From a virus, in the IMG/VR virus record IMGVR_UViG_3300036851_000660, positions 1-41,906 of that record: a DNA stretch of 41,906 nt; one strand, 5' to 3'. The position numbers were made by a program, and so were the translations under genes. Position 1 is the first letter of the stretch; every line of letters starts with the position of its first letter. This document shows positions 3,093 through 23,820 of the stretch, in pieces. Under the pieces are notes generated by a model. The model saw only the letters and a list, made by a program, of their open reading frames with translations. It ran no database searches and was not told the origin of the DNA.

Positions 3093-3539
3093 TTACCTCA
3101 CATATCCTACGACAACCACATCAAAGGTATAGGTTGTGGTTGCTACGGCACCTGTTGCAACACGCACAACCAGACTCTCACCTGAGGCAATACGGCTTCC
3201 ACCAGCAACCAGTGTTGGAGCAATCATAGTATTTGCTGCCGTCAGAGCAGTCAGTGCGAATCCATTGACGACATCGGCATACGTTGCCGCTGTTTTTCCC
3301 ACATTCACGACAGGTGGCGTTCCAAGACCAGATACGGTTGTCAGGACAATGTGCACCGCAATTGGATAGAACGCCGATGGATGGTCGTTGGTGAAGAGTG
3401 TGGTATTGCCAACCGTCTTTCCATCAATCCCTGTAACGGCCATCACCGTGAGTGTCTGCGAGTTCAGGGCATCTATGGACGTCCAGGACGCACACAATAA
3501 GCTCCCGATGAGTACGAGGACTACCAACCAGCGTGTCAT
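3093..3539 (-). CDS. Exported beta-rich protein of unknown function
   Basis: 148 aa from the ATG at 3539, coupled as TAATG to the preceding gene; an in-frame ATG at 3548 is the alternative. The N-terminus (MTRWLVVLVLIGSLLCAS) is a signal peptide or possibly a lipoprotein-like signal, since a Cys ends the hydrophobic run. The remainder is Thr/Val/Ala-rich and predicted beta, with no family I recognise. It lies between the beta-helix protein and the GIGT-motif protein. Secreted or virion-surface beta protein is the best description. Confidence 0.7.
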   Translation of the reverse strand: MTRWLVVLVLIGSLLCASWTSIDALNSQTLTVMAVTGIDGKTVGNTTLFTNDHPSAFYPIAVHIVLTTVSGLGTPPVVNVGKTAATYADVVNGFALTALTAANTMIAPTLVAGGSRIASGESLVVRVATGAVATTTYTFDVVVVGYVR

Positions 3540-4216
3540 TAGTTGCATACTCCATCTGCATCAGTGGTGACGGTGAGTACGCCACCGGACCATTTGCCCT
3601 TGCTCCAGTTTGCTCCACCCGTATCTCTCGCAATGTCACACCGACCAGTGGTTCCGTCGCCCTTAAACGTTGCGAATCCTGTACGGATAAGCGTCAGTTG
3701 CTCCGTGGGATTGTTGGTCCCGATGCCCACATTGCCCGTTGTCGCTTGAATACAGAGGCGATAGTCGAGCACGGCGGTTTCATACGCCAGGAAATTGCAG
3801 CTTGTATCACTTCCAATTACCATCGTTTCGGTATCATCACGACGGAAGCCAACATACAATGCACTGGCATTGTTGAAGTTGTAACGACGGCCCATGGTTG
3901 TGGTGCCAAATCCAATATTTCCGGCGTTCAAATAGACCGTGTTTGCCACCGCTCCGGCGTTGACCGACGTAAACGGGACGACGCTGTTTTGTGTGAGGGT
4001 GAAGTTGGCGGCGGGGGTGATATTGGCAATGGCAGGAGAGGTGTTGAAGACGAGGAGCCCGCTGCCGGTTTCATCCGTGATGCCCGTTGCAAGCTCCGCA
4101 GAGGTCAATGGAACAGTCGTCAGCCAGCCAGTAATACTTCGCTTGATATCCTGCGCGTGCACGACCGTAATGGCCACGAGCACACTGAGGAGTACATTCG
4201 CAAGGAGTCGTTTCAT
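3539..4216 (-). CDS. Exported fibre-like protein with GNVGIGT motif
   Basis: 225 aa. Signal peptide at residues 1-21 (MKRLLANVLLSVLVAITVVHA). The body is Thr/Asn/Gly-rich; around residues 165-180 it has GNVGIGTNNPTEQLTL, the GxxGIGTxxPxxxL pattern seen in tail fibres just before C-terminal chaperone or receptor domains. Here no S74-type chaperone follows and the protein ends 45 residues later with two Cys. A GAGGG site precedes the start, 8 bp after the upstream stop. Probably a fibre-like adhesin; why it carries an export signal is unexplained. Confidence 0.7.
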   Translation of the reverse strand: MKRLLANVLLSVLVAITVVHAQDIKRSITGWLTTVPLTSAELATGITDETGSGLLVFNTSPAIANITPAANFTLTQNSVVPFTSVNAGAVANTVYLNAGNIGFGTTTMGRRYNFNNASALYVGFRRDDTETMVIGSDTSCNFLAYETAVLDYRLCIQATTGNVGIGTNNPTEQLTLIRTGFATFKGDGTTGRCDIARDTGGANWSKGKWSGGVLTVTTDADGVCN

Positions 4217-4224
4217 AGGAGCCC

Positions 4225-4587
4225 TCAGCGTGTGGGAAAGCCAAACACACGAACGGTTGATGTGTCACCAGCACCACAGATAATACCAAGAACGGTGATA
4301 TTTTGGCCAGCAGCCGTATGAAGTGTATGGATTTCCCCAGGCAACATCTTCATATTGGCCGTTGTAGCGGTTGCTCCATTGGCATTCACATAGACCGCTT
4401 TTGTGCCATCATTGGCCAGGACGACACTGAACGCCTGGTTGCTGGTGTCGGCAAGTGTAATGGTAACGGTGCTGCTGACATCACTCGCGGAGACCTGGGT
4501 ATAGTAAATAGGGAGACCACTCAATGCCTGCAAGGGAACGAGAAGAAGCAGCACGAGTGGGAGAATAGTGCGTAGGTATTTCTTCAC
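4225..4587 (-). CDS. Small exported beta-domain protein
   Basis: 120 aa from a GTG start at 4587 with GGAAGAGGC just upstream. Signal peptide residues 1-23 (KKYLRTILPLVLLLLVPLQ core). The mature part is a single Thr/Ala/Val-rich domain of about 95 aa with two Cys-Gly-containing turns (IICGAGDTS), compatible with a small beta-sandwich like decoration or fibre-tip domains. No family recognised. It is separated from the next gene upstream by a 66-bp gap holding a 9-bp hairpin. Confidence 0.65.
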   Translation of the reverse strand: MKKYLRTILPLVLLLLVPLQALSGLPIYYTQVSASDVSSTVTITLADTSNQAFSVVLANDGTKAVYVNANGATATTANMKMLPGEIHTLHTAAGQNITVLGIICGAGDTSTVRVFGFPTR

Positions 4588-4602
4588 GCCTCTTCCTTCA
4601 AT

Positions 4603-4640
4603 AGTCTATTGATAGCAAGGAGAGTTGATACCAATAGACT
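4603..4640 (-). other. 9-bp perfect hairpin in the signal-peptide cassette
   Basis: AGTCTATTG (4603-4611) and CAATAGACT (4632-4640) are perfect inverted repeats around a 20-nt loop. They lie in the gap between the 339-aa and 120-aa exported-protein genes, just upstream (minus strand) of the 120-aa gene's ribosome-binding site. No U-tract follows, so mRNA processing or stabilisation is more likely than termination. Confidence 0.6.
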
Positions 4641-4653
4641 CTGTTGTGGGTGG

Positions 4654-5673
4654 TTACTGAAGCATAATGGAGACAGAGCACCAGGCGTCTTGGTCGGTAT
4701 TGTTCGACGACATAACCAGTTTCATCGCTACAGTTGCCCCAGCGGCCACATTGGTCGTACTGCCAACAAGGGACGCACAGCCGGTCTCTCCTGCTGAAAT
4801 GGTACAGGTGACTGTTGGGGTCAGGTCTGCCGCAGCGGAACGCATCGTGAAGATCATGGTCTCCGCAGCTCCGAGCACTTCCGCGCCATTCTGCATGCAG
4901 TACATCCCCATCACCTTGAATGCATTGTTGGGGAAGATCACGATATCCTGGGTGGCTTCGACCGCGCCATCGAGACCATCGCATGTGGCACCAGCGAGTT
5001 CAGGACGTGCACCAATCGTTGCACCGTTGATTCCCGCCGCAGGACTCAAATAAATCGTGCCATTCTCATCGGCCTGACCACAGAAGATCAGATCAAACCG
5101 AACACCAGATACCTCTCCACCACCGATGGAGTTTGCTGGAACAACGAGATCGGCATTCTGTGCACCATCCGCTGTAATAGTGACAGAAGTGGTTGATGCC
5201 CCGCCGAGAACAAGTGCCGCTGCTCCCCCTGGAAGCACCGTCAATGCCGCCGTTGCATCATCATCCGCAGCCGTCACGGTCACGGTGCCTGCATCCGAAC
5301 GGCCAAGCAGCACGGTTCCGTTTGTGCCACTGTTGACCCGCAAGGTACCAGAACTGGTGCCACCCACCACAAGGTTGCCGGTTCCACCCGCCTTCACCGT
5401 CAGCGCAGCATTGGCGTTGTCATCCTTTGCGGTCACCGTGACCGTGCCAGACGTGGTTCGCCCAAGTGTGAAGATACCTTCGCCGTCTGCATCATCAATG
5501 GAGCTGTTATTGGCCAGAGTTGTCAAGCCATCCTGCGAGAGTGACACCCCAGCAATCTTGATACCATTCACGAAATTCCAAATGACCGTCTCGTTGCGGG
5601 TGGTGGCTGCACTCCACAAGAGACCCGCAGTGACCAACACCACGCATACCGTTCCCAGGACAATTTTCTTCAT
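4654..5673 (-). CDS. Exported repeat protein, Cys-rich C-terminus
   Basis: 339 aa. Signal peptide residues 1-22 (MKKIVLGTVCVVLVTAGLLW). Two tandem copies of a Gly/Thr/Val repeat (SGTVTVTAKDDNANAALTV and AGTVTVTAADDDATAALTV) are followed by a C-terminal region of about 150 aa with several cysteines, which could form disulfides if exported. The repeats suggest a beta-solenoid or fibrous fold. Start: GAGAGGGAACC upstream of ATG. First gene of the five-gene signal-peptide cassette, immediately downstream of the compound hairpin at 5699-5739. No family recognised. Confidence 0.7.
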   Translation of the reverse strand: MKKIVLGTVCVVLVTAGLLWSAATTRNETVIWNFVNGIKIAGVSLSQDGLTTLANNSSIDDADGEGIFTLGRTTSGTVTVTAKDDNANAALTVKAGGTGNLVVGGTSSGTLRVNSGTNGTVLLGRSDAGTVTVTAADDDATAALTVLPGGAAALVLGGASTTSVTITADGAQNADLVVPANSIGGGEVSGVRFDLIFCGQADENGTIYLSPAAGINGATIGARPELAGATCDGLDGAVEATQDIVIFPNNAFKVMGMYCMQNGAEVLGAAETMIFTMRSAAADLTPTVTCTISAGETGCASLVGSTTNVAAGATVAMKLVMSSNNTDQDAWCSVSIMLQ

Positions 5674-6256: not shown

Positions 6257-7132
6257 TTACACCTCCCTCACAAGCACTTCGAGTACGGTATCTTCGTCGA
6301 TCCGGACCGCGTTAAAACTGGCGGTCGTCATGACCTGTAAGCTGTTCATTTTGTCAGCACGGCGGTCCATCTCGGTACGTAAGTCCTGCCCAATAGCGAA
6401 CGCCATCCCATCACGTTGATAAGCAAAGCACGAGCGGTCAAGTGAGCCATCGATGGGGAGAATGTCATCGCTGACACGCACCCATTTGAAGCCCATCCAC
6501 ATATCCCCTTCAATCGTCCCCTGTACCAGTGCCTTCACCGTATTGAAGTCCGAGCTGGTGACCTCGGTGTTCTCCAGCAGGTCTTCCATGGCCTGCGCCG
6601 AGACAACGAAGACGCGGCCCTCATCCATCACATCCTTGCTGTCGAAGATACGCTTGATCTGACGGACACGGCTGATGGTGAGACCGAGGCCACCCGAAGC
6701 GATGGTATTGCCTGCGGGGAGGGCGACAGGCGTTCCACCAAACTGCCCGCTATCGGAATCAGCGGTGAGCGCATTGATAATAGCATAGTCGAACTCGCGT
6801 CCAAAGGTCCGTGCAAAGTTGGACGCATAGAGCGAATCCGGGTTGATAAGCATACGAATCTGGTCTTCACGGTCTACCAGGTCGGCCAGCACATAGTCGA
6901 TCAGATCAACACTCCGCCTGGAGTGGACCTGTTCGGTGAGCGGGGTATCCTGGTGACGGCTGATTTTCACCTGCGGACGTTGCGCAGGGGCCAGCCGATC
7001 AAAGAAGGCTTTCTTGGCGTGGACAGTTTCCTCGCGGATGGTCCCACGAAGTTTGCTGCCCATCTGCTGCGACAGGATATACACATTCCTGTTGAACTGC
7101 TGGATAAAGGCGTTGGTAATTGTTTGAGACAT
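6257..7132 (-). CDS. Major capsid protein
   Basis: 291 aa. The N-terminus MSQTITNAFIQQFNRNVY followed by LSQQMGSKLRGTIR matches a family of HK97-fold podophage capsid proteins that I know only as generic phage capsid proteins. Later segments (DYVLADLVDREDQIRMLI; FGREFDYAIINAL) fit the same family. A scaffold gene lies upstream, consistent with T7-like head assembly. The ribosome-binding site is weak: the purine run GGGGGTG ends 13 bases before ATG, and a hairpin at 7158-7179 lies just upstream, so translation may depend on leader structure. Confidence 0.85.
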   Translation of the reverse strand: MSQTITNAFIQQFNRNVYILSQQMGSKLRGTIREETVHAKKAFFDRLAPAQRPQVKISRHQDTPLTEQVHSRRSVDLIDYVLADLVDREDQIRMLINPDSLYASNFARTFGREFDYAIINALTADSDSGQFGGTPVALPAGNTIASGGLGLTISRVRQIKRIFDSKDVMDEGRVFVVSAQAMEDLLENTEVTSSDFNTVKALVQGTIEGDMWMGFKWVRVSDDILPIDGSLDRSCFAYQRDGMAFAIGQDLRTEMDRRADKMNSLQVMTTASFNAVRIDEDTVLEVLVREV

Positions 7133-7339
7133 AAGGCTTTATGAGCACCCCCTACGTAGTTGCTAGCTCGAATGCAACTGCAAATACGCAAGCATATTCA
7201 TGAGAATTTCCGGGCTATCCTTTATAGACCCGAACATGGTCTTCCCACACTTCTCCTCATAAGGCTGCCCATCTCTGGACCCATGACTCAAAGGTACGAC
7301 AGTGCGGACATTACAGCTACCCGCATATCAACTCGGCTA
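7133..7339 (-). other. Leader between tRNA-Met and capsid gene, with hairpin
   Basis: About 207 bp with no confident gene. It contains AGTTGC/GCAACT (7158-7163 and 7174-7179), a 6-bp hairpin 26 bp upstream of the capsid start, and a shorter AGACC/GGTCT hairpin near 7228-7244. A 24-codon ORF starting at 7237 is annotated separately with low confidence. The segment is probably the 5' untranslated region of the abundant capsid mRNA, possibly left after tRNA processing. Confidence 0.5.
7163..7237 (-). CDS. Possible 24-aa leader peptide before capsid gene
   Basis: ORF of 24 codons (MFGSIKDSPEILMNMLAYLQ, then LHSS) between tRNA-Met and the capsid gene. Composition is protein-like with an amphipathic helix. 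GGGAAG precedes the ATG closely and GAGGAG lies 15 bases upstream. Its stop codon falls inside the 7158-7179 hairpin. It may be a translated leader, a mini-protein or chance. Confidence 0.3.
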   Translation of the reverse strand: MFGSIKDSPEILMNMLAYLQLHSS

Positions 7340-7409
7340 TTGCGGGAGTGAGAGTCGAACTCACAACGTTCTGGTTATGAGCCAGAGAGCCAACCATTGG
7401 CTTCCCGCA
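7340..7409 (-). tRNA. tRNA-Met (anticodon CAT)
   Basis: Cloverleaf on the minus strand: acceptor TGCGGGA (7409-7403) pairs with TCCCGCA (7347-7341), discriminator A at 7340, no encoded CCA. The anticodon arm is TCTGG-CTCATAA-CCAGA, the variable loop ACGTT, and the T arm GTGAG-TTCGACT-CTCAC. The D arm is short (CCA(A)/TTGG around ATGG). Anticodon CAT could also be read as isoleucine tRNA requiring lysidine, but the sequence looks like phage elongator Met tRNAs. It lies inside the late transcript, 7 bp after a Cys-rich mini-gene, so it must be processed from mRNA. Confidence 0.85.
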
Positions 7410-7415
7410 GCACTA

Positions 7416-7523
7416 TCATCCACACGCTCCATCACTACATGATGGGATATATCCACACACCTGACATCGAAACTTGCACGATGCACACAGAACCATCTCA
7501 TTCTGGCAAATTGGACAGCACAT
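7416..7523 (-). CDS. 35-aa Cys-rich zinc-ribbon-like protein
   Basis: Very short ORF, MCCPICQNEMVLCASCKFRC then QVCGYIPSCSDGACG: ten cysteines in 35 residues, including CPIC, CASC and CQVCG knuckles, as in zinc ribbons. AAGGAAACGTGAT gives a good ribosome-binding site before the ATG at 7523. Cys spacing of this kind is unlikely in random sequence, so I consider it real although the ORF is tiny. It is placed between the 7541-7616 repeat structure and tRNA-Met. Function unknown; metal-binding nucleic-acid or protein contact is plausible. Confidence 0.65.
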   Translation of the reverse strand: MCCPICQNEMVLCASCKFRCQVCGYIPSCSDGACG

Positions 7524-9445: not shown

Positions 9446-9713
9446 GATTCTCCTGCGGCTGCCCCTCTGTACTCTCTTCTGGGACCGCTTGTGGGTTCTC
9501 CAGTGCGTCTTCCACCATCGTACTCAACCAGATACCTACCTGTCTACTTCCCTCCCGAGCAGCAAGTTCAAGTTGATCCATACCAGGAGCATACAACGCT
9601 GTATAGTAGTTGCACTGCTCTAGGATGTCCTGGAGTACTCGTTGGCCACATGGATGACCAAATACCGTGGCATAGTCCATCAAACTGATTGGTGGGTTAA
9701 GGGGTCGTGGCAC
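9429..9713 (-). CDS. Bbp19-like phage protein
   Basis: 94 aa from a GTG at 9713 (GAAAGG 5 bases upstream); GTG 9719 and ATG 9680 are alternatives. DYATVFGHPCGQRVLQDIL, followed by YAPGMDQLELAAREGSRQV, matches the Bbp19 pattern (FxxPxGxRVLxDL, then REGxRxV). Members lie next to portal genes in podophages; role unknown. Its end is acidic and Gln/Glu-rich. It overlaps the portal stop by 17 bp and the following gene by 17 bp. Confidence 0.65.
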   Translation of the reverse strand: MPRPLNPPISLMDYATVFGHPCGQRVLQDILEQCNYYTALYAPGMDQLELAAREGSRQVGIWLSTMVEDALENPQAVPEESTEGQPQENHEDTN

Positions 9714-11328
9714 CGGCACCTTTCTGCATCACTTGCGCCGCTGCAAGCATATTGTTCAGTTGGGTTTGCTTGGCGGCTTGTTCTTGCTGAGCAGCCCGAA
9801 TTGTATTCGCCGCTTCTCGGCTGCGGATAACGTTTGCGGGGACTGCCGTGGCTTTCGCAATTTCCTCAACCACCTCGTCTGGATCAATCCGAGTGAGAAC
9901 ATCAGGTAGTACCTCACCCACTGGGAAGAGCAAAGCCATAAACTGATTAATTGCCTCAACATTTGCTGCCCTTTGCACCCGAGAGAGTGGTCCTTCAAAG
10001 ATCAATTCGAGCGAGACGTTTGTATTGGTCAGGGCTGCCGGTATGTCAGGAAGTGCCCCCGGTGCTCTCGACATGATAGCAAGTACTCGTTGAATAAGCG
10101 GTGCCAGGAATTCGCTCTGGAGACGTGAGACGACTGGCCCAAGAATCTTCTGCATGGTCTGGAAGCGGATACTCGCTTCCGTTGCACTGATCGGCGTGCC
10201 TTGCTTTGATTGGAACTGCAAAAGATCGACGAAGAACCCTGCTTGTATGGCTCGCTGGAGACGGTCCTCGCTGAAGTTTGCCACGTCGAAATTGGCCGGT
10301 ATCTGCAACGCCTTTATTTCTGCGCCTGGACGGACGTACATACGGGCAAATGGCTGGAGGCGTATCTGACCAACCACCCCACGATCAGGGGCAACAATCG
10401 GTGGTGCAATGGCCAACGTCCATGCCTTGAGACGTAATTCCACTGCCTGGTTCAACGTGCGGACATCAGGGAGGACGAGCATCCCTGGGGACCGGCCATA
10501 GGTCTCACCACTGATTTTGCGCCACCGTGGGGCCATGACCGGCATTTCATCCATGCCTTTTTCTTCCAGAAGGTGGAGCGCACCGCCGGTACCAGTCATA
10601 CATTCTGCCCAGACGGAGGCAATACGCCGTCTGGAGGGTGCAAGATATCGCTTGGTTGCTATAGATCGTGGATAGACACAATGGACGACTTCGCGCATTT
10701 CCTCTGGTTTGTCTTGCTCCATCAACTTCTGCGTATTTTCACTGACTTTCGATAATCCCCACCGGCTTACGAGAGCAGAGGCCCGCATGGGAATTGTACG
10801 GAATATCGTATCTACTCGACCATCCGCACCTTCTGCAATGACAAAACTCCCCGGCTGTTGTGTATGAAATCGCACGCCGGTAAATGTAAGACCAGAATGA
10901 AGCGGTTCTTCTTCCGCAACCATGAGCCCTGTGCCAAATGCGAGCAGATCGGAGTAGAGTTCTTGGGCTTCAGAATTGAAATTGCTATTGGTGATCGCAC
11001 GGAAGACCCGATTGGCAACTTCATCCAGCCAGGCCATCACACCTTCTTGACGGAGCAGTGTTACATCGTCAAGGGAGAATGAGAACCAGCGCAAGTTGTC
11101 TGGCGTGACACTTGAATGAATCGCACTGGCTGCTGTCGTGAGTGCCTGGGGGGCGGTTGCATCGAATATTTTGTCTGTGAGCTTGGTGCCAGGCGTGATC
11201 TTGGTAATGATCGTGTTGCGCCAGGGGACCATGTAATCGCCAATCTCCTGCCAGAGTGTCAGCCAGTTGCTTAACTCTGTGCGCAGCCGGTCGTGCAATT
11301 GTTTCAGGCTCTTGAGATCGGCAGCCAT
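9697..11328 (-). CDS. Portal (head-tail connector) protein
   Basis: 543 aa, the usual size for T7 gp8-type portals. Typical features: DLKSLKQLHDRLRTELSNWL, then DYMVPWRNTI, FDATAPQALTTAASAIHS and LTPDNLRWF-like segments near the N-terminus; a long helical C-terminal barrel region rich in Ala and Gln. It forms the dodecameric DNA channel at the capsid vertex. Start coupled as TAATG to the preceding small virion gene. Confidence 0.9.
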   Translation of the reverse strand: MAADLKSLKQLHDRLRTELSNWLTLWQEIGDYMVPWRNTIITKITPGTKLTDKIFDATAPQALTTAASAIHSSVTPDNLRWFSFSLDDVTLLRQEGVMAWLDEVANRVFRAITNSNFNSEAQELYSDLLAFGTGLMVAEEEPLHSGLTFTGVRFHTQQPGSFVIAEGADGRVDTIFRTIPMRASALVSRWGLSKVSENTQKLMEQDKPEEMREVVHCVYPRSIATKRYLAPSRRRIASVWAECMTGTGGALHLLEEKGMDEMPVMAPRWRKISGETYGRSPGMLVLPDVRTLNQAVELRLKAWTLAIAPPIVAPDRGVVGQIRLQPFARMYVRPGAEIKALQIPANFDVANFSEDRLQRAIQAGFFVDLLQFQSKQGTPISATEASIRFQTMQKILGPVVSRLQSEFLAPLIQRVLAIMSRAPGALPDIPAALTNTNVSLELIFEGPLSRVQRAANVEAINQFMALLFPVGEVLPDVLTRIDPDEVVEEIAKATAVPANVIRSREAANTIRAAQQEQAAKQTQLNNMLAAAQVMQKGAGATTP

Positions 11329-11669: not shown

Positions 11670-12043
11670 GGGATCACCTGTGTCAAAAGTGTATAGTTGC
11701 CTGACTCAACTCGTGCTCCGAAACGTTTTGCGCCCTCAATCCATCGTTCATCTTTTGCTGTCCATATGCACGCCACTTTCGTGTGAGCAATGCACCACTC
11801 TTCGAGACCTTCGAGCAATCGATAGGCAACATACTCCTGCCGGTGCCCTTCAAGAACGCTTAGGTGGGCAGCATAGATCACTGGATGTCCAGAGTCCCAG
11901 AAAATCACTGCCCCAATAACGGCGTTCTCTTCAACGAAGACCATCACGTTGTCGCGATTCCAGTTAATCTTCCATTCACCGTTTGGATAGACAGCGGTAA
12001 GGTCATCATATACATTCGCTGTTCTAACGTTGTACTCGGCCAC
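11657..12043 (-). CDS. GNAT-fold acetyltransferase-like protein
   Basis: 128 aa from a GTG at 12043 (GGAGGTTGA upstream). Sequence order fits a small GNAT fold: IGAVIFWDSGHPVIYAAHLS (core strands), EGHRQEYVAYRLLEGLEEWC (helix after strand 4) and WTAKDERWIEGAKRFGARV. The pyrophosphate loop is not a clear RxxGxG/A, so catalysis is uncertain. GNAT-like genes between terminase and portal are frequent in podophages; their substrate is unknown. Confidence 0.6.
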   Translation of the reverse strand: MAEYNVRTANVYDDLTAVYPNGEWKINWNRDNVMVFVEENAVIGAVIFWDSGHPVIYAAHLSVLEGHRQEYVAYRLLEGLEEWCIAHTKVACIWTAKDERWIEGAKRFGARVESGNYTLLTQVIPCQD

Positions 12044-13502
12044 TCAACCTCCACTCATCTTCATCATAGTGGCCGCTATAGCTCAACTCATTGGGCTCAT
12101 CGGCTTCCCACCGTGCAATACGTGCGGGATGACGATATTCACGAGTCGTTGGTTCGGCCTGTCCATATGTACGGTCACGGGGATCAAAGCTGGCATACTT
12201 GTCATACGTGCGTGGGTCAAACGCACCGATAGACGAGGAAAATCTCCGTTGGTCGTTGCCAATCAGGTCGATACCACAAGCAAGGACCATGAACGCATCG
12301 GCAATGTGACTCGCCCAGTTGTGCTTTGGCGTGTTACTGAAGACTTTGGCGACACGATCCCACTCGCGCTCATACCCACGAAGACCGGCAATGCCCCGCT
12401 CGCAATGAAGCGCATCGAAATACGTCCGGGGAATGAGTGCGTGTGCTGCGGCATGCTGTGCCTTCTTATCCGTCCGTTCAACAGTCGTGAAGTCGATGCC
12501 GAGGTTGAAGCCTGCCTGACGAATCTGATCGCCCGTACCAAACTCCCGTTTGGCAATATCATGAGGCCCCAGGTGTGTCCCATAGAAATACCCACGCTCT
12601 TGGAGCAATCGTGCAAAGTATGGTAAGCCTTCGTTATTGGCTTTGTCGTAGAAATCAATGCACCATACCGTTCGGCCATCGGTCTGGATGAACCAGATGG
12701 AACAGGAGTCGTTGACGCCGATATCCCATGCCGTGTGGACTGGAAAGCGTGGGTCATAGGGGACACGACCAATGCGGTCGCTCATTTCAGCCTGAAGCAT
12801 CTGCTGACCGAAATAGCTGCCCTCATTGCTGATCTCAAAGTCGCACCAGAACTCTTGCTGGATGATCTCCTCTGGGACACCAGTTGCACGGATATCGTCT
12901 ATTTCATCCATCGAGATCAGATGCGTGTCGTCCACGGTTAAGAGTTCGGTGAACCACCCGTCTCTGTTCTTCATTCGACTATAAAGTTCATAGCCATGAT
13001 TGTGACCGCGAGGTGTGTAGACGAACGCTGCCCACCCACCGTTCTTCGCAAGAATGGGACTGATGAACCGCCAACCAACCGGGTCTTGCAGCGCGTATTC
13101 ACTGAAGACACAGCCGACTGGGTTGGTGCTCATGATGCTGTCAACATTGTCAGAACCAATAAGTTGTAGTATTGATCCATTGGTGAAGTGTACCCGCATA
13201 TCCGTATCGTGGGTACTTTCGATGAGGGTACGCGGAATGTAGTCCAGAAAGCGTACACCTTTTTCATCCATGCCATACCAAATCGCCTTCTTTGCCTGGG
13301 AATAGGTTGGGTAGAAATAGTAGTAGATGCCTATACGTTCTTGGGCTTTGGCCCATGTCAGGTTCCAGAAGGTGATATCCTTACCACTCCGACGATGCCA
13401 TACCAATAATGCGCGCTTGCCACCCTTCATCATATAATCGACCACACGCTGCTGATGGGGGAGTGGTGTATAGCGGGGGGCAATGGTTTCAGGGGCGATC
13501 AT
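12024..13502 (-). CDS. Terminase large subunit
   Basis: 492 aa from the ATG at 13502, which overlaps the previous stop (ATGA); an in-frame ATG at 13532 lacks this coupling. ATPase: Walker A-like LLVWHRRSGKD at about residues 32-42, Walker B-like GCVFSEYAL near 130. Nuclease: AWDIGVNDSCSIWF (RNase H-like, first acidic residue) near 270, and HIADAFMVLACGID near 430. It packages DNA into the procapsid with the portal. Packaging strategy (cos, pac or repeat) cannot be read from the sequence. Confidence 0.92.
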   Translation of the reverse strand: MIAPETIAPRYTPLPHQQRVVDYMMKGGKRALLVWHRRSGKDITFWNLTWAKAQERIGIYYYFYPTYSQAKKAIWYGMDEKGVRFLDYIPRTLIESTHDTDMRVHFTNGSILQLIGSDNVDSIMSTNPVGCVFSEYALQDPVGWRFISPILAKNGGWAAFVYTPRGHNHGYELYSRMKNRDGWFTELLTVDDTHLISMDEIDDIRATGVPEEIIQQEFWCDFEISNEGSYFGQQMLQAEMSDRIGRVPYDPRFPVHTAWDIGVNDSCSIWFIQTDGRTVWCIDFYDKANNEGLPYFARLLQERGYFYGTHLGPHDIAKREFGTGDQIRQAGFNLGIDFTTVERTDKKAQHAAAHALIPRTYFDALHCERGIAGLRGYEREWDRVAKVFSNTPKHNWASHIADAFMVLACGIDLIGNDQRRFSSSIGAFDPRTYDKYASFDPRDRTYGQAEPTTREYRHPARIARWEADEPNELSYSGHYDEDEWRLSGRVQR

Positions 13503-14380
13503 AAGGTGGTCCGTGCAGTATATGTTTTCCAATACACACTGAGAATCGCTTGGCCACTCCCCCCAAATGGACCGCCGTTCGCGGAGAGAATAATATCGCC
13601 AGCCGTTTGCATCGTTGGATGGTCTCCGCGTCGTCTATTCGCCGGTGTTGTTATGGTTCCGGCAGTGATCCCAATCGTTTGGCCCCATCCATCGGTAATC
13701 CCCAATCCTCCAATATCCACACTACTCAAACCGTTTGATGTATCAAAATCAATCGCACAGTAGTACAACACCTCGGCAATCTCGGTTCCAACGGGAAGAC
13801 CGGCTGAGAGGGTGATGATCCACTGTCCAGCGTTGGGGGCTGCCAGTGCTTCAATAGTGGTGATACCTTCCGAGATACCACTCACCGGATCGGGTGTGAC
13901 CTGGAAGAGCGCGGTATCAAACAATGTGAGACCTTCAATAGCGTCCCAACCAACGACTTTCAGTGCGCCTGGCTCGGGAAATGCCAGGTCTCTACGGAGT
14001 GCTTTGGCCCCTGGTGGGAAGCCAATCTTGCGAGACAGCTCTTCGTCATGCTGCTGGATCATCTTGACGATTTGATCCAACCGCAGTGAGAGCGCTTGTG
14101 ATGGGAGTGGACCGTTGGCGGTTATTTCGAGCAATTGCTCATGTGGAACGACACGCCGGAGGGCAATCACCGTTCCTGACGCAGGCGCACTGTAGTACGT
14201 GATTGTTCCTGCATCGTTGCCAACACCAGCCACAGAGTAATCGACTGTTTCGGTATCAACCGTTCCACCCCGTCGTACTTCCAGTTCGCTGCTCGATGCA
14301 ATCTTGAAGTCATAGACGAACGTGACCGTTGCTCCGTCCCCTGTGTATTCGTTGTGCGAGGGTGATGCTGGAACGGTCAC
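13499..14380 (-). CDS. Tail fibre with T7 gp17-type N-terminal domain
   Basis: 293 aa from a GTG at 14380 (GGAGAAAG upstream; GTGA overlap with the previous gene). Residues 1-150 show the tail-attachment domain: NEYTGDGATVTFVYDFKI, SSSELEVRRGG, VDYSVAGVGNDAGTITYYSA, ALRRVVPHEQLLEI and a helix LSLRLDQIVKMIQQHDEEL. Residues 150-293 are beta-rich and end with a short distal domain. It is shorter than T7 gp17 and lacks an obvious receptor-binding shaft, so separate adhesins (perhaps the exported cassette) may complete the fibre. Confidence 0.8.
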   Translation of the reverse strand: MTVPASPSHNEYTGDGATVTFVYDFKIASSSELEVRRGGTVDTETVDYSVAGVGNDAGTITYYSAPASGTVIALRRVVPHEQLLEITANGPLPSQALSLRLDQIVKMIQQHDEELSRKIGFPPGAKALRRDLAFPEPGALKVVGWDAIEGLTLFDTALFQVTPDPVSGISEGITTIEALAAPNAGQWIITLSAGLPVGTEIAEVLYYCAIDFDTSNGLSSVDIGGLGITDGWGQTIGITAGTITTPANRRRGDHPTMQTAGDIILSANGGPFGGSGQAILSVYWKTYTARTTL

Positions 14381-14634: not shown

Positions 14635-15031
14635 CAATCACCTCCAGGTCCGTTGTGGTTGGTGTTTGAACGGTCCAACCGCTCAGGTCAATATGGACGG
14701 CTGGAGGAGCGGGTGTATCGTTGGTGGAGCGTCTGCGAAGGGCCATAACATCCATACCAATATCTGCAAGCGCTTTCGCAGCAGCTATCTGTGCCGTTGT
14801 GTCTTCAGTTACCCGTTCATCGGTGACGACACCTTCATGCGTGAAATATTGGACTTTGGTCGCATCGAGCTTCTCAAGCAGTTTGTCCGTTGAACGACGG
14901 ACGAATGTGCCAATTTCAACAGGATCGAAACCAGCGGCGTCGAGCGTCATCTGGCGTGCATCGGCAATGGAGATGGGATACTGGTCCTGGTTACCACCAC
15001 GCTTCTTGAGTTCGTCTCGACGCTTGGCCAT
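14615..15031 (-). CDS. Terminase small-subunit candidate
   Basis: 138 aa. Mostly helical, starting with a basic MAKRRDELKKRGG and an ADARQMTLDAAGFDPVEIG segment, then KLDATKVQYFTHEGVVTDER, as seen in podophage small terminase-like proteins (xKVKxFxHxGxVTDxRxx). Preceded by GGAAGCTG and coupled to the preceding gene (TGATG). Its position two genes before the large terminase supports a DNA-recognition role, but the assignment is by pattern and context. Confidence 0.5.
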   Translation of the reverse strand: MAKRRDELKKRGGNQDQYPISIADARQMTLDAAGFDPVEIGTFVRRSTDKLLEKLDATKVQYFTHEGVVTDERVTEDTTAQIAAAKALADIGMDVMALRRRSTNDTPAPPAVHIDLSGWTVQTPTTTDLEVIDATPGH

Positions 15032-15342
15032 CAGCTTCCATCCTCAGCCATTGCTCGTCTGGTTCGGTCAGGATTCTTGAATCGGAGAATACGGGATCGA
15101 ATCAATCGAATCTCACTTCCTGAGAGCATACGGTGCAGCCGACGTTGCCGATCTCGGCGGTAGCGGCGGGAGAACTCCTCTTTGTGGGAGATCAAGTACT
15201 GGCGCAGCGCATCGTGCGACATGGGTATTAGTTGTGCTGCGAGGCGGAGGTCGTATAGTGGCTCGACCGGGAGTACATATGGGATACGGTTGAGACAAGT
15301 GGGGCATACGGCTATTCCGGCTGCACTGTGATTATCATACAC
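15031..15342 (-). CDS. Putative DNA-binding protein, first gene of the late block
   Basis: 103 aa. CPTCLNRIPYVLPVEPLYDL gives a CxxC near the N-terminus, followed by LRLAAQLIPMSHDALRQYLI (helix-turn-helix-like) and a very basic tail (RRYRRDRQRRLHRML). AAGGAG lies 10 bases before the ATG. As the first gene after the divergent promoter region, it could regulate transcription or take part in packaging recognition. Family not recognised with certainty. Confidence 0.65.
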   Translation of the reverse strand: MYDNHSAAGIAVCPTCLNRIPYVLPVEPLYDLRLAAQLIPMSHDALRQYLISHKEEFSRRYRRDRQRRLHRMLSGSEIRLIRSRILRFKNPDRTRRAMAEDGS

Positions 15343-15365
15343 TCTCGGCTCCTTTTTTCGTCTTT

Positions 15366-15395
15366 ATAATATATATGAAATGGAAATTCTGACAA
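15366..15395 (-). promoter_or_regulatory. Candidate late promoter (sigma-70 type)
   Basis: Minus strand: TTGTCA (15395-15390), 18-bp spacer, TATTAT (15371-15366), followed 24 bp later by the late-block start at 15342. Good match to the host consensus; activity not shown. Confidence 0.5.
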
Positions 15396-15512
15396 CATAT
15401 TGATATTGTTGATGTTTAGTTTTGGGAAAGTTTGGAAATAGGTATGGTCGATGAGAGGGAAGAGATAGTCCGATTAGGACTAGGCTTTTAACCCCCACCC
15501 CTTTTTGGCGTA

Positions 15513-15540
15513 ATACTATCAGTACAGTGAGCAATATCAA
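15513..15540 (-). promoter_or_regulatory. Candidate late promoter (sigma-70 type)
   Basis: Minus strand: TTGATA (15540-15535), 16-bp spacer, TAGTAT (15518-15513). A second possible start for the late block upstream of the one at 15366-15395. Confidence 0.4.
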
Positions 15541-15598
15541 CAGTTTATACATAGTACGAAGTGGACAGGACGCTTCCTAAGTCGCCTGGTTCTGTTCA

Positions 15599-15694
15599 TA
15601 CTAGTGCTATCATGACAGTCACTAACGACGTAGTGTCCATTCTGAACTACTTACACACCCGTTCACCATTGATAACGTTCACTTAGCACTAGTA
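15599..15694. repeat. 11-bp inverted repeat flanking a plus-strand promoter
   Basis: TACTAGTGCTA (15599-15609) and TAGCACTAGTA (15684-15694) are exact reverse complements 74 bp apart. The right copy overlaps the spacer and start of the -10 of the candidate promoter 15669-15698. The arrangement suggests paired operator sites or a DNA loop. Confidence 0.6.
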
Positions 15695-15698
15695 CTAT
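15669..15698 (+). promoter_or_regulatory. Candidate plus-strand promoter
   Basis: TTGATA (15669-15674), 18-bp spacer, TACTAT (15693-15698). The second inverted-repeat copy (15684-15694) overlaps its spacer and -10, so binding there would block it. Confidence 0.4.
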
Positions 15699-15880
15699 TT
15701 ATGTGCTTATACTCTTTATATCATCTTTTAATCATCATTATATCAATTGCTTATCATCATTAATAGCCACGTGGAGACCATCAAAAGGAAGAGAGAGACA
15801 TTCATGAGAACTTTATAACGCCCGTAACGTCAATCAAAACAGCTACTTATCCTCAATCATATACGGCAGTGCCGTACCGC

Positions 15881-16126
15881 ATGCGTTCAAATTGGACTCA
15901 CTTTTCACAGCTCACAGGTGACCCGTTATACGCGCCGATTTCCCCACTCCTCGATGAACCTGCCCAACGACCCCCATGGCCATACCCCAAAAAACGCCCC
16001 AGGGTGCCCCAGGATCCAATGAGGCATCCGATACGGGCCAACAGACCACCGACCACACTCGAATGGAAAACGGCGTCACCGCTGGGCAAAATGGTGGTAC
16101 TGAAAAATAATCTGCAATCCGGTTGA
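15881..16126 (+). CDS. Doubtful 81-aa Pro-rich ORF
   Basis: ORF of 81 codons (MRSNWTHFSQLTGDPLYAPI, then a Pro/Arg-rich middle such as RPPWPYPKKRPRVPQDP). No ribosome-binding site precedes the ATG or the in-frame GTG at 15869, and the 15862-15876 palindrome lies where one would be. It ends 3 bp into the -35 box of the early promoter. It might be a real small early protein or chance in non-coding DNA. Confidence 0.3.
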   Translation: MRSNWTHFSQLTGDPLYAPISPLLDEPAQRPPWPYPKKRPRVPQDPMRHPIRANRPPTTLEWKTASPLGKMVVLKNNLQSG

Positions 16127-16151
16127 CATCCTTTTCGCTGCGAGGTACTGT
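16123..16151 (+). promoter_or_regulatory. Strong early promoter (sigma-70 type)
   Basis: TTGACA (16123-16128), 17-bp spacer, TACTGT (16146-16151): near-consensus host promoter. Expected transcription start is about 16158. It would drive the structured segment and the first early genes. A palindrome overlaps the -10. Confidence 0.75.
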
Positions 16152-16160
16152 TTTAGTACC
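16144..16160 (+). promoter_or_regulatory. Operator-like palindrome over the early -10
   Basis: GGTACT (16144-16149) and AGTACC (16155-16160) around GTTTT form a perfect inverted repeat covering the -10 box and the start point. A protein bound here would shut off the early promoter; the binder is unknown. Confidence 0.55.
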
Positions 16161-16860
16161 GGATGGGTACGGTACGCGGGACGGGCACCGCAGGGGCAGC
16201 CAGCCAAGGGGCGCAGGTGGACGCCACTCAGAGATGAGTGAGAGCAGAATCCACCAACGGCTTTCTCTCCAAGCCTACAATGGCCGCTGCAACCAGACCA
16301 CGAATATGAGGATACCGTTGCCACAGTACCATACACTTACTCCATAGGGAGCAGCGCGCCACCACATGCCGCACACCGTAACCAGTCGGGAGTGCCTGCA
16401 TACCATACCGTGAAATAGGCAGGGGCAACTACCCTACGGCACAGCGTAGGCCAAGACGCCCCAACAACCGACACTCTACGCAGCTCTGAGCAAGCAGAGT
16501 GGCCCTAGACGTTGCCTGCATAGCACTTGTCCCACGAGTGGATACCAATGGGTGCTACTACAGCTAGAGCGTTAGGCGGACACCTATCATAACGTAAATG
16601 TGTGGTCAAGCGGACCAGCCATAGGCACCGAAATGCTACCCAGCAATGGGCAAGTCGAGCGTAGCATAGCAACCTACGCTTGGACGCTGCGAACCCGTAC
16701 CCTTGAGAGCGTGAACACTGAGCCGCGAGGGTAAGACGGGACACGACGCACAGATACAGTAGCAGCAGCGTATATCGGCAGGCAGTACCCCGGCATGGCA
16801 ATCTCGCACAGGCGCTATGCCGGATGCCCCCAGCGGCTAACCTTCTCGTGGTGGGGGCGT
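16158..16860 (+). ncRNA. Candidate large structured noncoding RNA (~700 nt)
   Basis: This GC-rich segment after the strong early promoter has no credible ORF on either strand. Perfect or near-perfect stems include GGTGGA/TCCACC (16216-16221, 16250-16255) enclosing CACTCA-GAGA-TGAGTG (16225-16240, GNRA loop); CAACGG/CCGTTG (16255-16260, 16315-16320); CCTACG/CGTAGG (16433-16450); CTCTG/CAGAG (16484-16499); CACTTGT/ACGAGTG (16524-16540); GGTGC/GCACC (16551-16555, 16625-16629) closing a multiloop with CGTTA/TAACG and TGGTC/GACCA; ATGCTAC/GTAGCAT (16633-16667) around CCCA-GCAA-TGGG (GNRA loop); CCCGT-ACCCT/AGGGT-AAG-ACGGG (16694-16740); CCGGCAT/ATGCCGG (16790-16823); GCCCCC/GGGGGC (16826-16858). 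Size and phage context recall giant RNAs such as GOLLD or ROOL, but no homology is claimed. A long structured 5' UTR or DNA-level origin structure are alternatives. Confidence 0.5.
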
Positions 16861-16908
16861 CAGCAGTATGCCAATAGCCAATGTATACCTCTATGCGGAG
16901 GACAGTGG

Positions 16909-17124
16909 ATGGCAGCAATCATTGAATCGTGGTATGAAAGCCCAGTACGGTGGGGATATGACGTGTTTATCGAATCCTATCGTGCGTGCAGACCCTCACA
17001 ACGGTTTGTTGGGGGTTTTACCGACTACCGCAGTGCAATGGCATGTGCGGCGCACGTGGCAGTAGTGCAAGATCGAGCCTGTGGATGGCCAAGGGGAACG
17101 AAATGCTCTGGAAAAAGCGCGTAG
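16909..17124 (+). CDS. Small early protein of unknown function
   Basis: 71 aa. Start chosen at the ATG at 16909 because GGAGG (16897-16901) lies 7 bases upstream; the frame is open to 16795, but that region belongs to the structured segment. Aromatic-rich: WYESPVRWGYDVFIESYRAC, then FVGGFTDYRSAMACAAHVAV. The xVGGFxDxxxA pattern is seen in small phage proteins. Overlaps the next gene by 22 bp, so translation is probably coupled. First confident gene of the early block. Confidence 0.6.
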   Translation: MAAIIESWYESPVRWGYDVFIESYRACRPSQRFVGGFTDYRSAMACAAHVAVVQDRACGWPRGTKCSGKSA

Positions 17125-18590: not shown

Positions 18591-18630
18591 GCGCGGAACC
18601 TGGGGACGGCTCAGGGTTGTCGTCCGTCTC

Positions 18631-18692
18631 TTGTCCTCGTCCCAGGTTCCCCACTATATAATAGTGGGGACTGGGGACGGGACAGGGGACAA
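18631..18692 (+). repeat. Compound hairpin element, copy 2
   Basis: Outer TTGTCC (18631-18636) with GGACAA (18687-18692), middle CGTCCC and CCAGG blocks with CTGGGGACGGG, and a perfect inner stem CCCCACTAT (18649-18657) with ATAGTGGGG (18661-18669) around ATA. TATAAT is at 18657-18662. A competing 10-bp stem GGAACCTGGG (18595-18604) with CCCAGGTTCC (18641-18650) shares bases with it. Lies between two early genes; no U-tract follows. Related to 5699-5739 and 36782-36816. Confidence 0.75.
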
Positions 18693-20411: not shown

Positions 20412-20440
20412 TTGACAAACAGACCAAAACGAACTATACT
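20412..20440 (+). promoter_or_regulatory. Near-consensus sigma-70 promoter for the sigma-like operon
   Basis: TTGACA (20412-20417), exact 17-bp spacer, TATACT (20435-20440), within the 161-bp gap before the sigma-like gene. Expected start is about 20447. It gives the replication module its own host-driven transcription. Confidence 0.75.
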
Positions 20441-20486
20441 ATGAGAAAGGAGCGAAAGAAGAAACGATACAGAGTACGAGGAAGTC

Positions 20487-20768
20487 ATGGAAAATTGGGA
20501 ACTGGAAGTTTGGTACAAGAACAACCGTAGGAAGGTGATCCGGCACTTTGCGGGGAAGTATGGCACGGAGACGGTGAGCGCAGAAGACGCATTGCAGGAT
20601 GTTATGGTGCGTCTTCTGGCCCTTGAGAGACCATTACGTACCAAGACAGTTGATGAGGTTGAGAAAATTATCTGGGTGGCGGTTGACAATGCCTTGAAGC
20701 AACAATACAATACCTATAAAAGGAGATGTGAAGGAGAACAAGCCTATGCAAAAAGAGACCTTGAATGA
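20487..20768 (+). CDS. Sigma factor region-2-like protein
   Basis: 93 aa. Residues about 13-80 fit region 2 of ECF-type sigma factors: a helix ending IRHFAGKYG, then VSAEDALQDVMVRLLALE (DxxQDVxxRLL), then VEKIIWVAVDNALKQQYNTY followed by KRR (the WLxxVAxNxAxxxxRRxRR helix). Region 4 (the -35 reader) is missing; the protein ends 13 residues after KRR. It may recruit host RNA polymerase to phage -10-like sites, or act as an anti-sigma mimic. The start at 20487 has GAGGAAG upstream. The stop overlaps the helicase start (ATGA). Confidence 0.55.
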   Translation: MENWELEVWYKNNRRKVIRHFAGKYGTETVSAEDALQDVMVRLLALERPLRTKTVDEVEKIIWVAVDNALKQQYNTYKRRCEGEQAYAKRDLE

Positions 20769-21682
20769 TCCCCAAATCACTGAGTATTGCCGAGCTGCTT
20801 GCCGAGAATCCCACACCAATTGCCTGCATTGTCGAGGATTTTTTACCTGTGGGTGGTTTGAGTTTGCTCGTGGCGCATCCCAAGGCTGGTAAATCAACAT
20901 TTGCACGGAATTTGATGTGTGATGTCGGCCTGGGAAAGCCATTCCTCGGTCGGCATACCACCCAGGTTCCTATTGTCTATTTGGCCTTGGAGGAGCCAAA
21001 AGAACACGTTGCGCATGAATTTCGGCTGCTGGGAGCAGATGTCCAACCAATTTATACACGAGTTGGGCATATTCCAAAACCCCAAGTCGCAGAGGTATTG
21101 ACAAGCGATATCATTGAGCGGGGGGCAGGATTGGCGATTCTTGATCCCCTGTTTGACGCGCTCAGTGTGGATGATGCCAATAGCTACAATCTGATGAATG
21201 AGGCCATGAAAGAGCTATTGTATATCGCCCGAAAAACGGGGTGTCATATCATGGCATTGCACCATACAAACAAAGGGGGTGCTCATGGGGGATTGTCCGT
21301 CCTGGGAAGCCAGGCGACATCGGGTGCGACAGATCACAATGCGTTTCTGACGATGCGTCGAGACGGCACGCGATTATTTGAGAGTCAGGCGCGTGTCGGT
21401 GTGGCATTTGAACTCGCAGAACTTGGTTTTGATCCAGACACACATCGGTTATGGATTGCCGAGGAAGTCGCCGCGTTGAAGCAGTCACACCTGACAGAAG
21501 AGCTGCTCGAAGCGCTTGCCTCGTGTACGCTGACAACGACCGACTGGCGGTCACGAGTGCGGGGAAGAAACAGTGATAAGTCTGCGGCAATACACAAACT
21601 GGAAGCAGACGGACGGATTGTACGTATCAACAATGGCCGACACACGTTCTGGAAACGGAGCACCCATGTTGAGCAAGAGTGA
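20765..21682 (+). CDS. RecA-fold replicative helicase / RepA-like ATPase
   Basis: 305 aa. Walker A AHPKAGKST at residues 37-45; Walker B GLAILDPLFDAL near 122-133; LHHTNKGG near 165; QATSGATDHNAFLTM motif near 185. This is the AAA_25/RepA pattern of hexameric helicases. The C-terminal 60 residues form a winged-helix-like domain (LTTTDWRSRVRGRNSDKSAA, then IHKLEADGRIV). It probably unwinds DNA at the fork; no primase domain is present, and no primase was found elsewhere. Coupled to the sigma-like gene. Confidence 0.8.
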   Translation: MIPKSLSIAELLAENPTPIACIVEDFLPVGGLSLLVAHPKAGKSTFARNLMCDVGLGKPFLGRHTTQVPIVYLALEEPKEHVAHEFRLLGADVQPIYTRVGHIPKPQVAEVLTSDIIERGAGLAILDPLFDALSVDDANSYNLMNEAMKELLYIARKTGCHIMALHHTNKGGAHGGLSVLGSQATSGATDHNAFLTMRRDGTRLFESQARVGVAFELAELGFDPDTHRLWIAEEVAALKQSHLTEELLEALASCTLTTTDWRSRVRGRNSDKSAAIHKLEADGRIVRINNGRHTFWKRSTHVEQE

Positions 21683-21860
21683 GATACCCACGCACGTATT
21701 GAATGGACCAGAAGGATTGACGGGGGATATCGAAGGGTTCATGGAGCTATTCTCACAGGGATATCTGGCGAAACACTACGATGCTCTGGTTGCTCAGAAT
21801 GCGCTGGATGATAACAAGATTTTTCTCTGGATGCGGAGCTTAAATGCCCAAAGTGTATAG
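21666..21860 (+). CDS. Small acidic protein in replication operon
   Basis: 64 aa from the ATG at 21666 with GGAG 8 bases upstream, overlapping the helicase by 17 bp and the nuclease gene by 17 bp. MLSKSEIPTHVLNGPEGLTG, then FMELFSQGYLAKHYDALVAQ. Mostly helical and unrecognised; its position suggests a helper of the helicase or nuclease. Confidence 0.6.
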   Translation: MLSKSEIPTHVLNGPEGLTGDIEGFMELFSQGYLAKHYDALVAQNALDDNKIFLWMRSLNAQSV

Positions 21861-22689
21861 TCCGAGTGCCACACTGACCTTCCAGCGGTGTCCACAACTC
21901 TGGTGGTGGCAACGACATGGCTGGAGAAGCAAGATCATTGGAAAGCCTGAGATTGCGGCGGCGATTGGTCTGGGTGTCGCACGAGGGATGGAGGTCTACT
22001 TTACACGACTGGGGGGAGAACAACTTCACAGTCCAACACTTGAACAGGTGGTGGGTGCGGCACAGGAAACAGGGATTGCTTCTATTCAGGAACGATTGGA
22101 CCAGGGAGCAGCCCTCGCGCCGTCGGTTGAGAAATCCTGGGAGCTGCTCCCAACACGCATTGAGAAAGCGCTTCGACGATTTCACAAGGAGCAACCATTG
22201 CCTGCTGACTGGCATACCTTCCAGCCAGAATTGGTGTTCCCGGATCATGGGCAATGTCGTGTGGACTTGCTGCATCAGAGTGCTCTTGGTCCGTGCATTA
22301 CCGACTTCAAGACCAAGGTGACCGCAGCCGAGTACATTGTTGACAGTTTCCTGTTTGATGCCGAAACGAGTTGGCAGATGGCGCATTATGTGTGGGCAGC
22401 GCGGGAGATGGGCATCCGTGTCGATAGTTTTGCGATCTGCCTGATTGTCATTGAGCCATTCCATGTCTATCTGGAGCAGTGGCCGATTGATGAGGTGAAT
22501 CAAACCCGCTGGTTGGTTGACGCGAAGAACTGGTGGAAATTGATGGAACTCACCGAAACGGGGATTGTCGCACCGATGCGGGTGGGCGATCACCGGGATA
22601 AGTATGGACTGTGTAGTATGCATAGTTTGTGCTATGGTGAGAGCTATCATATGTATACACGAAAGGATCGTGATGGACACATCAAGTAA
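21844..22689 (+). CDS. PD-(D/E)XK nuclease, Cas4/RecB-like
   Basis: 281 aa. Starts YSPSATLTFQRCPQLWWWQR, the usual opening of Cas4/AddB-type nucleases with Cys16. Catalytic set: Glu129 (FQPEL), Asp141 (CRVDLL), Asp154 and Lys156 (TDFKTK), then QMAHYVWAA as the motif-IV helix. The C-terminus has YGLCSMHSLCYG, so Cys16 with two later Cys could hold an Fe-S cluster, though the fourth ligand is unclear. Likely a 5'-3' exonuclease in recombination or host DNA degradation; it lies near the Sak4-like gene. Confidence 0.8.
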   Translation: MPKVYSPSATLTFQRCPQLWWWQRHGWRSKIIGKPEIAAAIGLGVARGMEVYFTRLGGEQLHSPTLEQVVGAAQETGIASIQERLDQGAALAPSVEKSWELLPTRIEKALRRFHKEQPLPADWHTFQPELVFPDHGQCRVDLLHQSALGPCITDFKTKVTAAEYIVDSFLFDAETSWQMAHYVWAAREMGIRVDSFAICLIVIEPFHVYLEQWPIDEVNQTRWLVDAKNWWKLMELTETGIVAPMRVGDHRDKYGLCSMHSLCYGESYHMYTRKDRDGHIK

Positions 22690-22888
22690 ACGAGTGAGAA
22701 TTACCGCAGTGCATCGCAAGGATGCCTACTATCCGAGTGCTGGGATCCTCATTGGCCAGACAGGGAAGTTCTGGAAAGAAAGAGAGATCATTCCTGGATG
22801 GTTTGCTGGCGAGTGGGCGGGAGATCAACTGATTGACGATTCTCGATTTGCCGTGTTCTATGCCATTCAGTATGAGGAGATAGGATGA
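22673..22888 (+). CDS. Small conserved protein, SH3-like candidate
   Basis: 71 aa from the ATG at 22673 (AAAGGATCG upstream). Pattern RVRITAVHRKDAYYPSAGIL, FWKEREIIPGWFAGEW, RFAVFYAIQYEEIG: beta-rich with YYP and GxFxGEW turns, as in small phage SH3-barrel-like proteins. Overlaps the nuclease by 17 bp and the next gene by 4 bp. Function unknown. Confidence 0.6.
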   Translation: MDTSSKRVRITAVHRKDAYYPSAGILIGQTGKFWKEREIIPGWFAGEWAGDQLIDDSRFAVFYAIQYEEIG

Positions 22889-23049
22889 CGAAACGCGAGC
22901 TGATTACAGCGTTAGAAGCCCTTCCGGTCTCTGACTCGACCGAAGTGTATGCAAAGAAGCTCATTGTGGTCGATGGACGAGTCGTTGAGGTTGAGGTGGT
23001 CATTGCAAACGATCTGTTTCCTTCTGCGGCATATATTCAATTGAGTTGA
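22885..23049 (+). CDS. Small protein of unknown function
   Basis: 54 aa: MTKRELITALEALPVSDSTE, then VYAKKLIVVDGRVVEVEVVI. GAGGAGATAGG gives a strong site, with ATGA overlap to the previous gene. A helix plus two beta strands. It comes before the Sak4-like gene and may be co-translated with it. Confidence 0.6.
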   Translation: MTKRELITALEALPVSDSTEVYAKKLIVVDGRVVEVEVVIANDLFPSAAYIQLS

Positions 23050-23056
23050 GGTGTCC

Positions 23057-23779
23057 ATGCGACGTATAGACCCCAATGAGCCACCCGAAATTGGCTCCCT
23101 GCTTATCCATGGGCTGAACAACGTTGGCAAGACACACATTCTTGCCTCGTTGCTCGCGCATGAGAAGCAGTATGGCCAGGTCATGTATGTCAATATGCGA
23201 GGAGAACCCCACGCAACGATCTTTGCGCATGATATGGCTGGTGTGGAACTGGTGGAGTTGGAGAAACTGGAGGAAGTATCGGACCTTGCTAAGAGTATCG
23301 ACCACGTTCATGCCATTGCACTGGATTCGATACAACGATTGGGAGAGTTGGCCGGTGTGAAAGTAACGGGTGGCTCCTATATCATTGGAGCGAAGGAGGA
23401 TCACGGTAAGGATTGGAACAAGTTAAAGGGTGAGACGTTTCGGGCCATCGCTGCACTCCAGCAACGGTGTGAATTGTTTGTTGCGGTCTGCCCGAGTAAT
23501 TTGCATGAACACGCGATCACGCATGAGTTGCGGGTTGTCCCGGACGTGCCTGGGATTGGGGAGAAGCTGGTGGGGCGTTTCAATTTCGTGGGGTATCTCA
23601 CCGCCCGCACCATTACTGAGTCGGTGACAACACGACTGCTGGACTTCCAGCCGCGCCTCGATGCAGTCACGCGGTGGAATGCCAAAGGTCCAGTGCCGAA
23701 GCCACTTACGGTGAAACAGGGGCTGGGCGGTTGGCTCCCAATCAAACTTCTTTTGGAGAAAGGACTTGATGGAGAATAG
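23057..23779 (+). CDS. Sak4-like RecA-fold ATPase (single-strand annealing)
   Basis: 240 aa from the ATG at 23057 (GAGG upstream; a GTG at 23051 is also in frame). Walker A LLIHGLNNVGKTHILASL near residues 17-30; Walker B-like HAIALDSIQRLG near 85-97; AICPS-type strand (LFVAVCPSNLHEH) near 140. This single-domain P-loop core of about 240 aa is typical of Sak4-type phage recombinases and is followed by an SSB-like protein, a common pair. Likely anneals ssDNA in replication and recombination. Confidence 0.7.
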   Translation: MRRIDPNEPPEIGSLLIHGLNNVGKTHILASLLAHEKQYGQVMYVNMRGEPHATIFAHDMAGVELVELEKLEEVSDLAKSIDHVHAIALDSIQRLGELAGVKVTGGSYIIGAKEDHGKDWNKLKGETFRAIAALQQRCELFVAVCPSNLHEHAITHELRVVPDVPGIGEKLVGRFNFVGYLTARTITESVTTRLLDFQPRLDAVTRWNAKGPVPKPLTVKQGLGGWLPIKLLLEKGLDGE

Positions 23780-23792
23780 TAGTCTGGTCAAT

Positions 23793-23820
23793 TTGACAAT
23801 GCAACAGACGAGAGTATACT
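23793..23820 (+). promoter_or_regulatory. Sigma-70 promoter for the SSB-like gene
   Basis: TTGACA (23793-23798), 16-bp spacer, TATACT (23815-23820) in the 73-bp gap before the SSB-like gene. This provides extra transcription of a protein needed in quantity. Confidence 0.7.

Follow-up and report, generated by a model that had tools for sequence, protein, structure and literature searches.

Structured 5′ untranslated leaders are known in phage early operons. GOLLD RNAs are frequently, but not obligatorily, located near tRNAs. Many of them exceed 800 nt in length (PMC12286853). Phage ICP1 makes its most abundant transcript, about 800 nt long and devoid of ORFs, from the interval between gp139 and gp140 (PMC7567579).

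The window analysed here, a single virus record of 41,906 bases, contains a T(U)-poor noncoding segment (16160–16868, plus strand) that is proposed to be an untranslated leader or RNA. Like the ICP1 RNA, which has about the same length, it is found in the noncoding part of a compact lytic phage genome and away from tRNAs. However, the two differ in genome place, and expression has been shown for the ICP1 RNA whereas the segment is known from sequence alone; their sequences were compared only through a blastn search of phage records. With GOLLD and ROOL RNAs the segment shares its presence in a phage, a comparable size and the lack of coding capacity (PMC12286853), but it matches neither Rfam model, is not near a tRNA island and has a structure that is only predicted. 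Structured leaders of phage early operons are likewise situated between early promoter candidates and the first early gene, with no terminator and with run-on into the early genes. The simplest reading of the segment, in our view, is an untranslated leader of the early transcription unit that is long and specific to the lineage, and we assign it a probability of about 0.5. With about 750–790 nt such a leader would be unusually long, given that 104–322 nt separate a shared upstream motif from the first gene in relatives.

Genome layout and noncoding status

Late genes of the window lie on the minus strand (a tail protein, the capsid at 6257–7132, the portal at 9697–11328 and the terminase at 12024–13532) and early genes on the plus strand (a helicase at 20765, a Sak4-like protein at 23051, DNA polymerase at 26174 and RNA ligase at 30135). 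Among annotated phages, capsid and terminase are closest to those of Manatee Spring podoviruses and HTVC010P-type Pelagibacter phages. The nearest relative found in IMG/VR alignment searches with portal, polymerase and terminase is L015, with 56% identity in the portal and 60% in the terminase, an 8.5-kb contig that stops short of the segment. Polymerase relatives from IMG/VR are 38–42% identical and none has a sequence similar to the segment. Single-protein IMG/VR searches with portal, helicase and capsid yielded distant kin only, and a terminase scan of genome contigs three distant loci. A single tRNA-Met (CAT) gene is located between the capsid and protease genes (7340–7409, minus strand).

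Late and early genes diverge from a noncoding control gap (15343–16908), which is longer than any other noncoding stretch in the genome. The initial annotation, which described 16152–16860 as free of any credible ORF, was borne out on this point. Codon-usage scores over 16141–16860 fall into the lowest 0.3–12% of the genome's 180-nt windows, and a check for a protein frame also favoured the annotation, every plus frame of the segment being interrupted by 5–11 stops. No coding signal was found on either strand of 16160–16868 and no match to Pfam or PHROGs among the ORFs inside it, so that the segment does not qualify as a protein-coding gene in the sense of an open frame with the codon usage of the genome. 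Its T(U) content of 15% is the lowest of all 700-nt windows in the genome. A low-T stretch in G001 (21700–22400) turned out to be coding.

At the late-side edge of the gap, a small CxxC protein (15031–15342, minus strand) gave no Pfam match. A small CxxC protein of L212 (about 7200–7440, plus strand), likewise at the late-side edge of its control gap, has, by eye, the stretch LPVEPLY in common with it. On the early side, ORF, codon-usage and protein-family analysis identified the first credible early ORF, of 71 aa, at 16909–17124 (plus strand), preceded by the ribosome-binding site GGAGGA (16897–16902).

Promoter candidates and a shared motif

The segment had been placed behind the strongest early promoter, TTGACA-17-TACTGT (16123–16151, plus strand). 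Judged by consensus matches, this rank could not be upheld: the −35 element is perfect, but the −10 element matches at only 3/6 positions, and three better sites with 11/12 consensus matches (20412, 20683 and 23793) occur within 20412–23820. TTGACA followed by TA at the right distance is found five times in the window versus 3.6 times expected. A promoter scan revealed a second promoter-like sequence, TGGGCA-17-AATAAT (16083–16111, plus strand). Both plus-strand candidates match the sigma-70 consensus at 9/12 positions, a level expected by chance. As a side observation, the site at 20412 is directly followed by the gene for a 93-aa protein (20487–20768) that could be a phage sigma factor, given its weak match to sigma-70 region 2 (PF04542, E 3.5e-4, below the cut-off).

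The upstream promoter candidate overlaps GGCAAAATG (16085–16093), a copy of the motif G[GA]CAAAATG, which precedes the first early gene on the early strand both in the window and in three relatives (positions 16085 in the window, 32203 and 32234 in L011, 10356 and 10381 in L271, and 8490 in L272). This location applies to both copies in L011 (41 kb), both in L271 (15 kb), the only one in L272 (15 kb) and one of two in the window, a count that is not an independent test because the motif was spotted while the gaps were being compared by eye. It is absent from the control gap of the related phages L014, L178 and L273. Some copies are palindromic (GGGCAAAATGCCC, GGACAAAATGTCC), and the motif is a candidate operator or activator site. 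For these uncultured podoviruses as a group, it offers a marker of early control that can be put to the test. Between the final copy of the motif and the first probable early start, read by eye except for the annotated start of L011, lie 824 nt in the window, 304 nt in L011, 322 nt in L272 and 104 nt in L271. Thus, the window has about 500–700 nt more between the early control motif and the first gene.

No intrinsic-terminator-like site was found on the plus strand between 16160 and 16909. Hence, any transcript begun at 16083–16160 would carry the segment as a leader. What we infer is transcription itself, its start site and every RNA function of the segment. Transcription would start at one of the two promoter-like sites beside the motif common to relatives, although both are weak, and would proceed through the segment into the first early gene. 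This reading is favoured by the lack of a coding signal, the shared motif, the absence of a terminator-like site, the low T(U) content and the plus-strand lean in folding described below, and disfavoured by the chance-level promoter matches, the better minus-strand fold of domain I and the missing motif in the gaps of L014, L178 and L273. The leader is predicted to fold locally into consecutive hairpin domains, which might protect the early mRNA at its 5′ end or be released as a stable cleavage product. Were it no more than a leader, the segment would be a long but otherwise ordinary control element, marking the start of early transcription in this lineage.

The control gap as a possible DNA element

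A different reading is that the segment is DNA that is not transcribed, or transcribed only incidentally, and represents a rapidly evolving control region (origin of replication, operators, spacer) with no function at the RNA level. In support of this, the relatives with the same divergent layout (L011, L014, L271, L272 and L273) likewise have long control gaps of low coding content, and the gap sequences fail to align. The gaps of the window and L011 (MW202572) are hardly alignable; the short matches between them are few, include three in conserved order and are confined to the part upstream of the segment. One of these is CGCCGATTTCCCCA (15933–15946, plus strand), a 14-nt word identical in the equivalent gap of L011 that is weak evidence alone (E about 0.65). 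The gap 3479–4942 of MW202572 was considered as an RNA and dismissed, as by eye it appears to contain unannotated reading frames.

Further features near the segment would suit a DNA element, namely an inverted repeat read from the sequence (ACTAGTGCTA at 15600–15609 and TAGCACTAGT at 15684–15693) and phased AT-rich tandem repeats of 11 nt (15713–15756), computed from the sequence and possibly an origin of replication or unwinding element. GC skew also turns at the control gap, a turn that gene direction explains as well. Near-chance folding and helix counts, described below, fit the same reading. On the other hand, the 824 nt between motif and gene compared with 104–322 nt in L271, L011 and L272 argue that something was added or kept, and a plain DNA element leaves the depletion of U and the GNRA-capped hairpins unexplained. 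Overall, we regard a pure DNA region as a secondary reading with a modest chance of being correct, about as likely as a discrete structured RNA.

Folding potential of the segment

A further reading of the segment is a discrete large structured RNA, either independent of the early transcript or processed out of it, with a function like that of abundant ORF-less phage transcripts or of GOLLD and ROOL. All stems listed in the initial annotation are present, but in about the measure expected by chance. They include three perfect 7-bp stems (ATGCTAC at 16633 with GTAGCAT at 16661, AGCGTAG at 16658 with CTACGCT at 16674, and CCGGCAT at 16790 with ATGCCGG at 16817), the stem of CCCGTACCCT at 16694 with AGGGT-AAG-ACGGG at 16728, the pairing of GGTGC at 16551 with GCACC at 16625, and two GNRA-capped hairpins with the loops GAGA (16225–16240) and GCAA (16639–16650). 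As proposed, the ATGCTAC/GTAGCAT and AGCGTAG/CTACGCT hairpins are mutually exclusive; they are similar in energy (−9.2 and −10.5 kcal/mol).

The predicted plus-strand fold consists of contiguous, closed domains with high pairing probability, which speaks for a discrete RNA. Domain I (16168–16380) contains the GAGA hairpin (16216–16255); its z-score on the plus strand is −0.5 for 16160–16380 and the minus strand folds better. It is followed by the best-folding part, a three-way junction with an adjacent hairpin (16385–16509, z = −3.6), and by a multibranch domain closed by TGCCTGC/GCAGGCA that contains both alternative 7-bp hairpins (16513–16784). The 3′ end is formed by the hairpin CCGGCATGGC/GCTATGCCGG (16790–16823) and a 10-bp hairpin, GATGCCCCCA/TGGGGGCGTC (16823–16861), with no T run 3′ of it according to the terminator scan.

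Comparison with shuffled sequences gave a borderline result. The minimum free energy of the whole segment has a z-score of −1.6 on the plus strand, with 11 of 200 shuffles as low, and of +0.1 on the minus strand. For 16385–16510, whose borders were taken from the fold itself, the corresponding values are −3.6 and +0.3. This lean towards the plus strand favours the leader. Fifteen perfect helices of at least 6 bp compare with 10.8 ± 2.8 in shuffles, the longest perfect helix has 7 bp versus a shuffle average of 7.7, and the ensemble entropy is ordinary. In 160-nt windows, the mean z-score of the segment is −0.49, a value reached by 36% of other genome stretches, and 12 of 574 other 126-nt windows (about 2%) fold as low as the best domain. 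The two GNRA-capped hairpins occur together in 6 of 1000 shuffles and in 0.4% of genome windows, a feature picked after the sequence had been seen. An exceptional or evolutionarily conserved RNA structure is not shown by these data.

Apart from its domains, a discrete RNA draws on the GNRA hairpins, the lowest U content in the genome and the precedent of the ICP1 transcript (PMC7567579). It is countered by the whole-segment z-score and chance-level helix counts, by the ordinary windows that equal its best domain and true long hairpins of the genome that reach z = −6, by the lack of a terminator that would make a separate transcript, and by the searches described below. Taken together, we think a discrete RNA rather unlikely.

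Homologue and RNA family searches

Rfam cmscan of the segment returned no family at the gathering threshold or up to E = 10, and no tRNA, tmRNA or Rfam family matched inside it. As the segment matches none of the Rfam covariance models of GOLLD, ROOL and OLE, membership in these families is rejected; the only tRNA gene of the window is 8.8 kb away and thus offers no GOLLD-like proximity. Blastn with a cut-off of E = 10 matched phage and plasmid records only at chance level, over 20–37 nt, and among the records searched no homologue was found in phages, plasmids or IMG/VR relatives. A single-sequence covariance model of the best domain (16383–16512) retrieved only itself from 67 records (1.3 Mb), the best other hit having E = 2.9. 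An 80% match over 49 nt in L215 falls within a 771-aa reading frame and was discarded as chance.

Of the interpretation in the initial annotation, support extends to a segment that is noncoding, probably transcribed and located where the early genes begin, whereas a large RNA of the GOLLD/ROOL kind is unsupported owing to the missing Rfam match, marginal folding, the absence of a homologue for covariation, the missing terminator and the weak promoter. It is improbable that the segment is the first known representative of a new class of large structured phage RNAs, about 700 nt long, produced at the onset of infection, excised from the early transcript and switching between the two exclusive 7-bp hairpins at 16633–16682. 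If a stable RNA of such size were demonstrated, it would add to the few large phage RNAs whose function is unknown. A degenerate coding region, or foreign DNA inserted recently, would explain why relatives lack a counterpart, but this is very improbable, as no frame shows a coding signal or matches a protein, phage and plasmid records contain nothing similar and no flanking repeats were found.

Elsewhere in the window, a very long GGGGAC-rich hairpin (18625–18690, z = −6.4) is located between two early genes and followed by the inverted repeat TATATAGGTATATAGCTATCTACCTATA. It is far stronger than anything in the segment. A 15-bp hairpin (22600–22638; z about −6 for 22535–22680) lies inside the 3′ end of a 281-aa reading frame.
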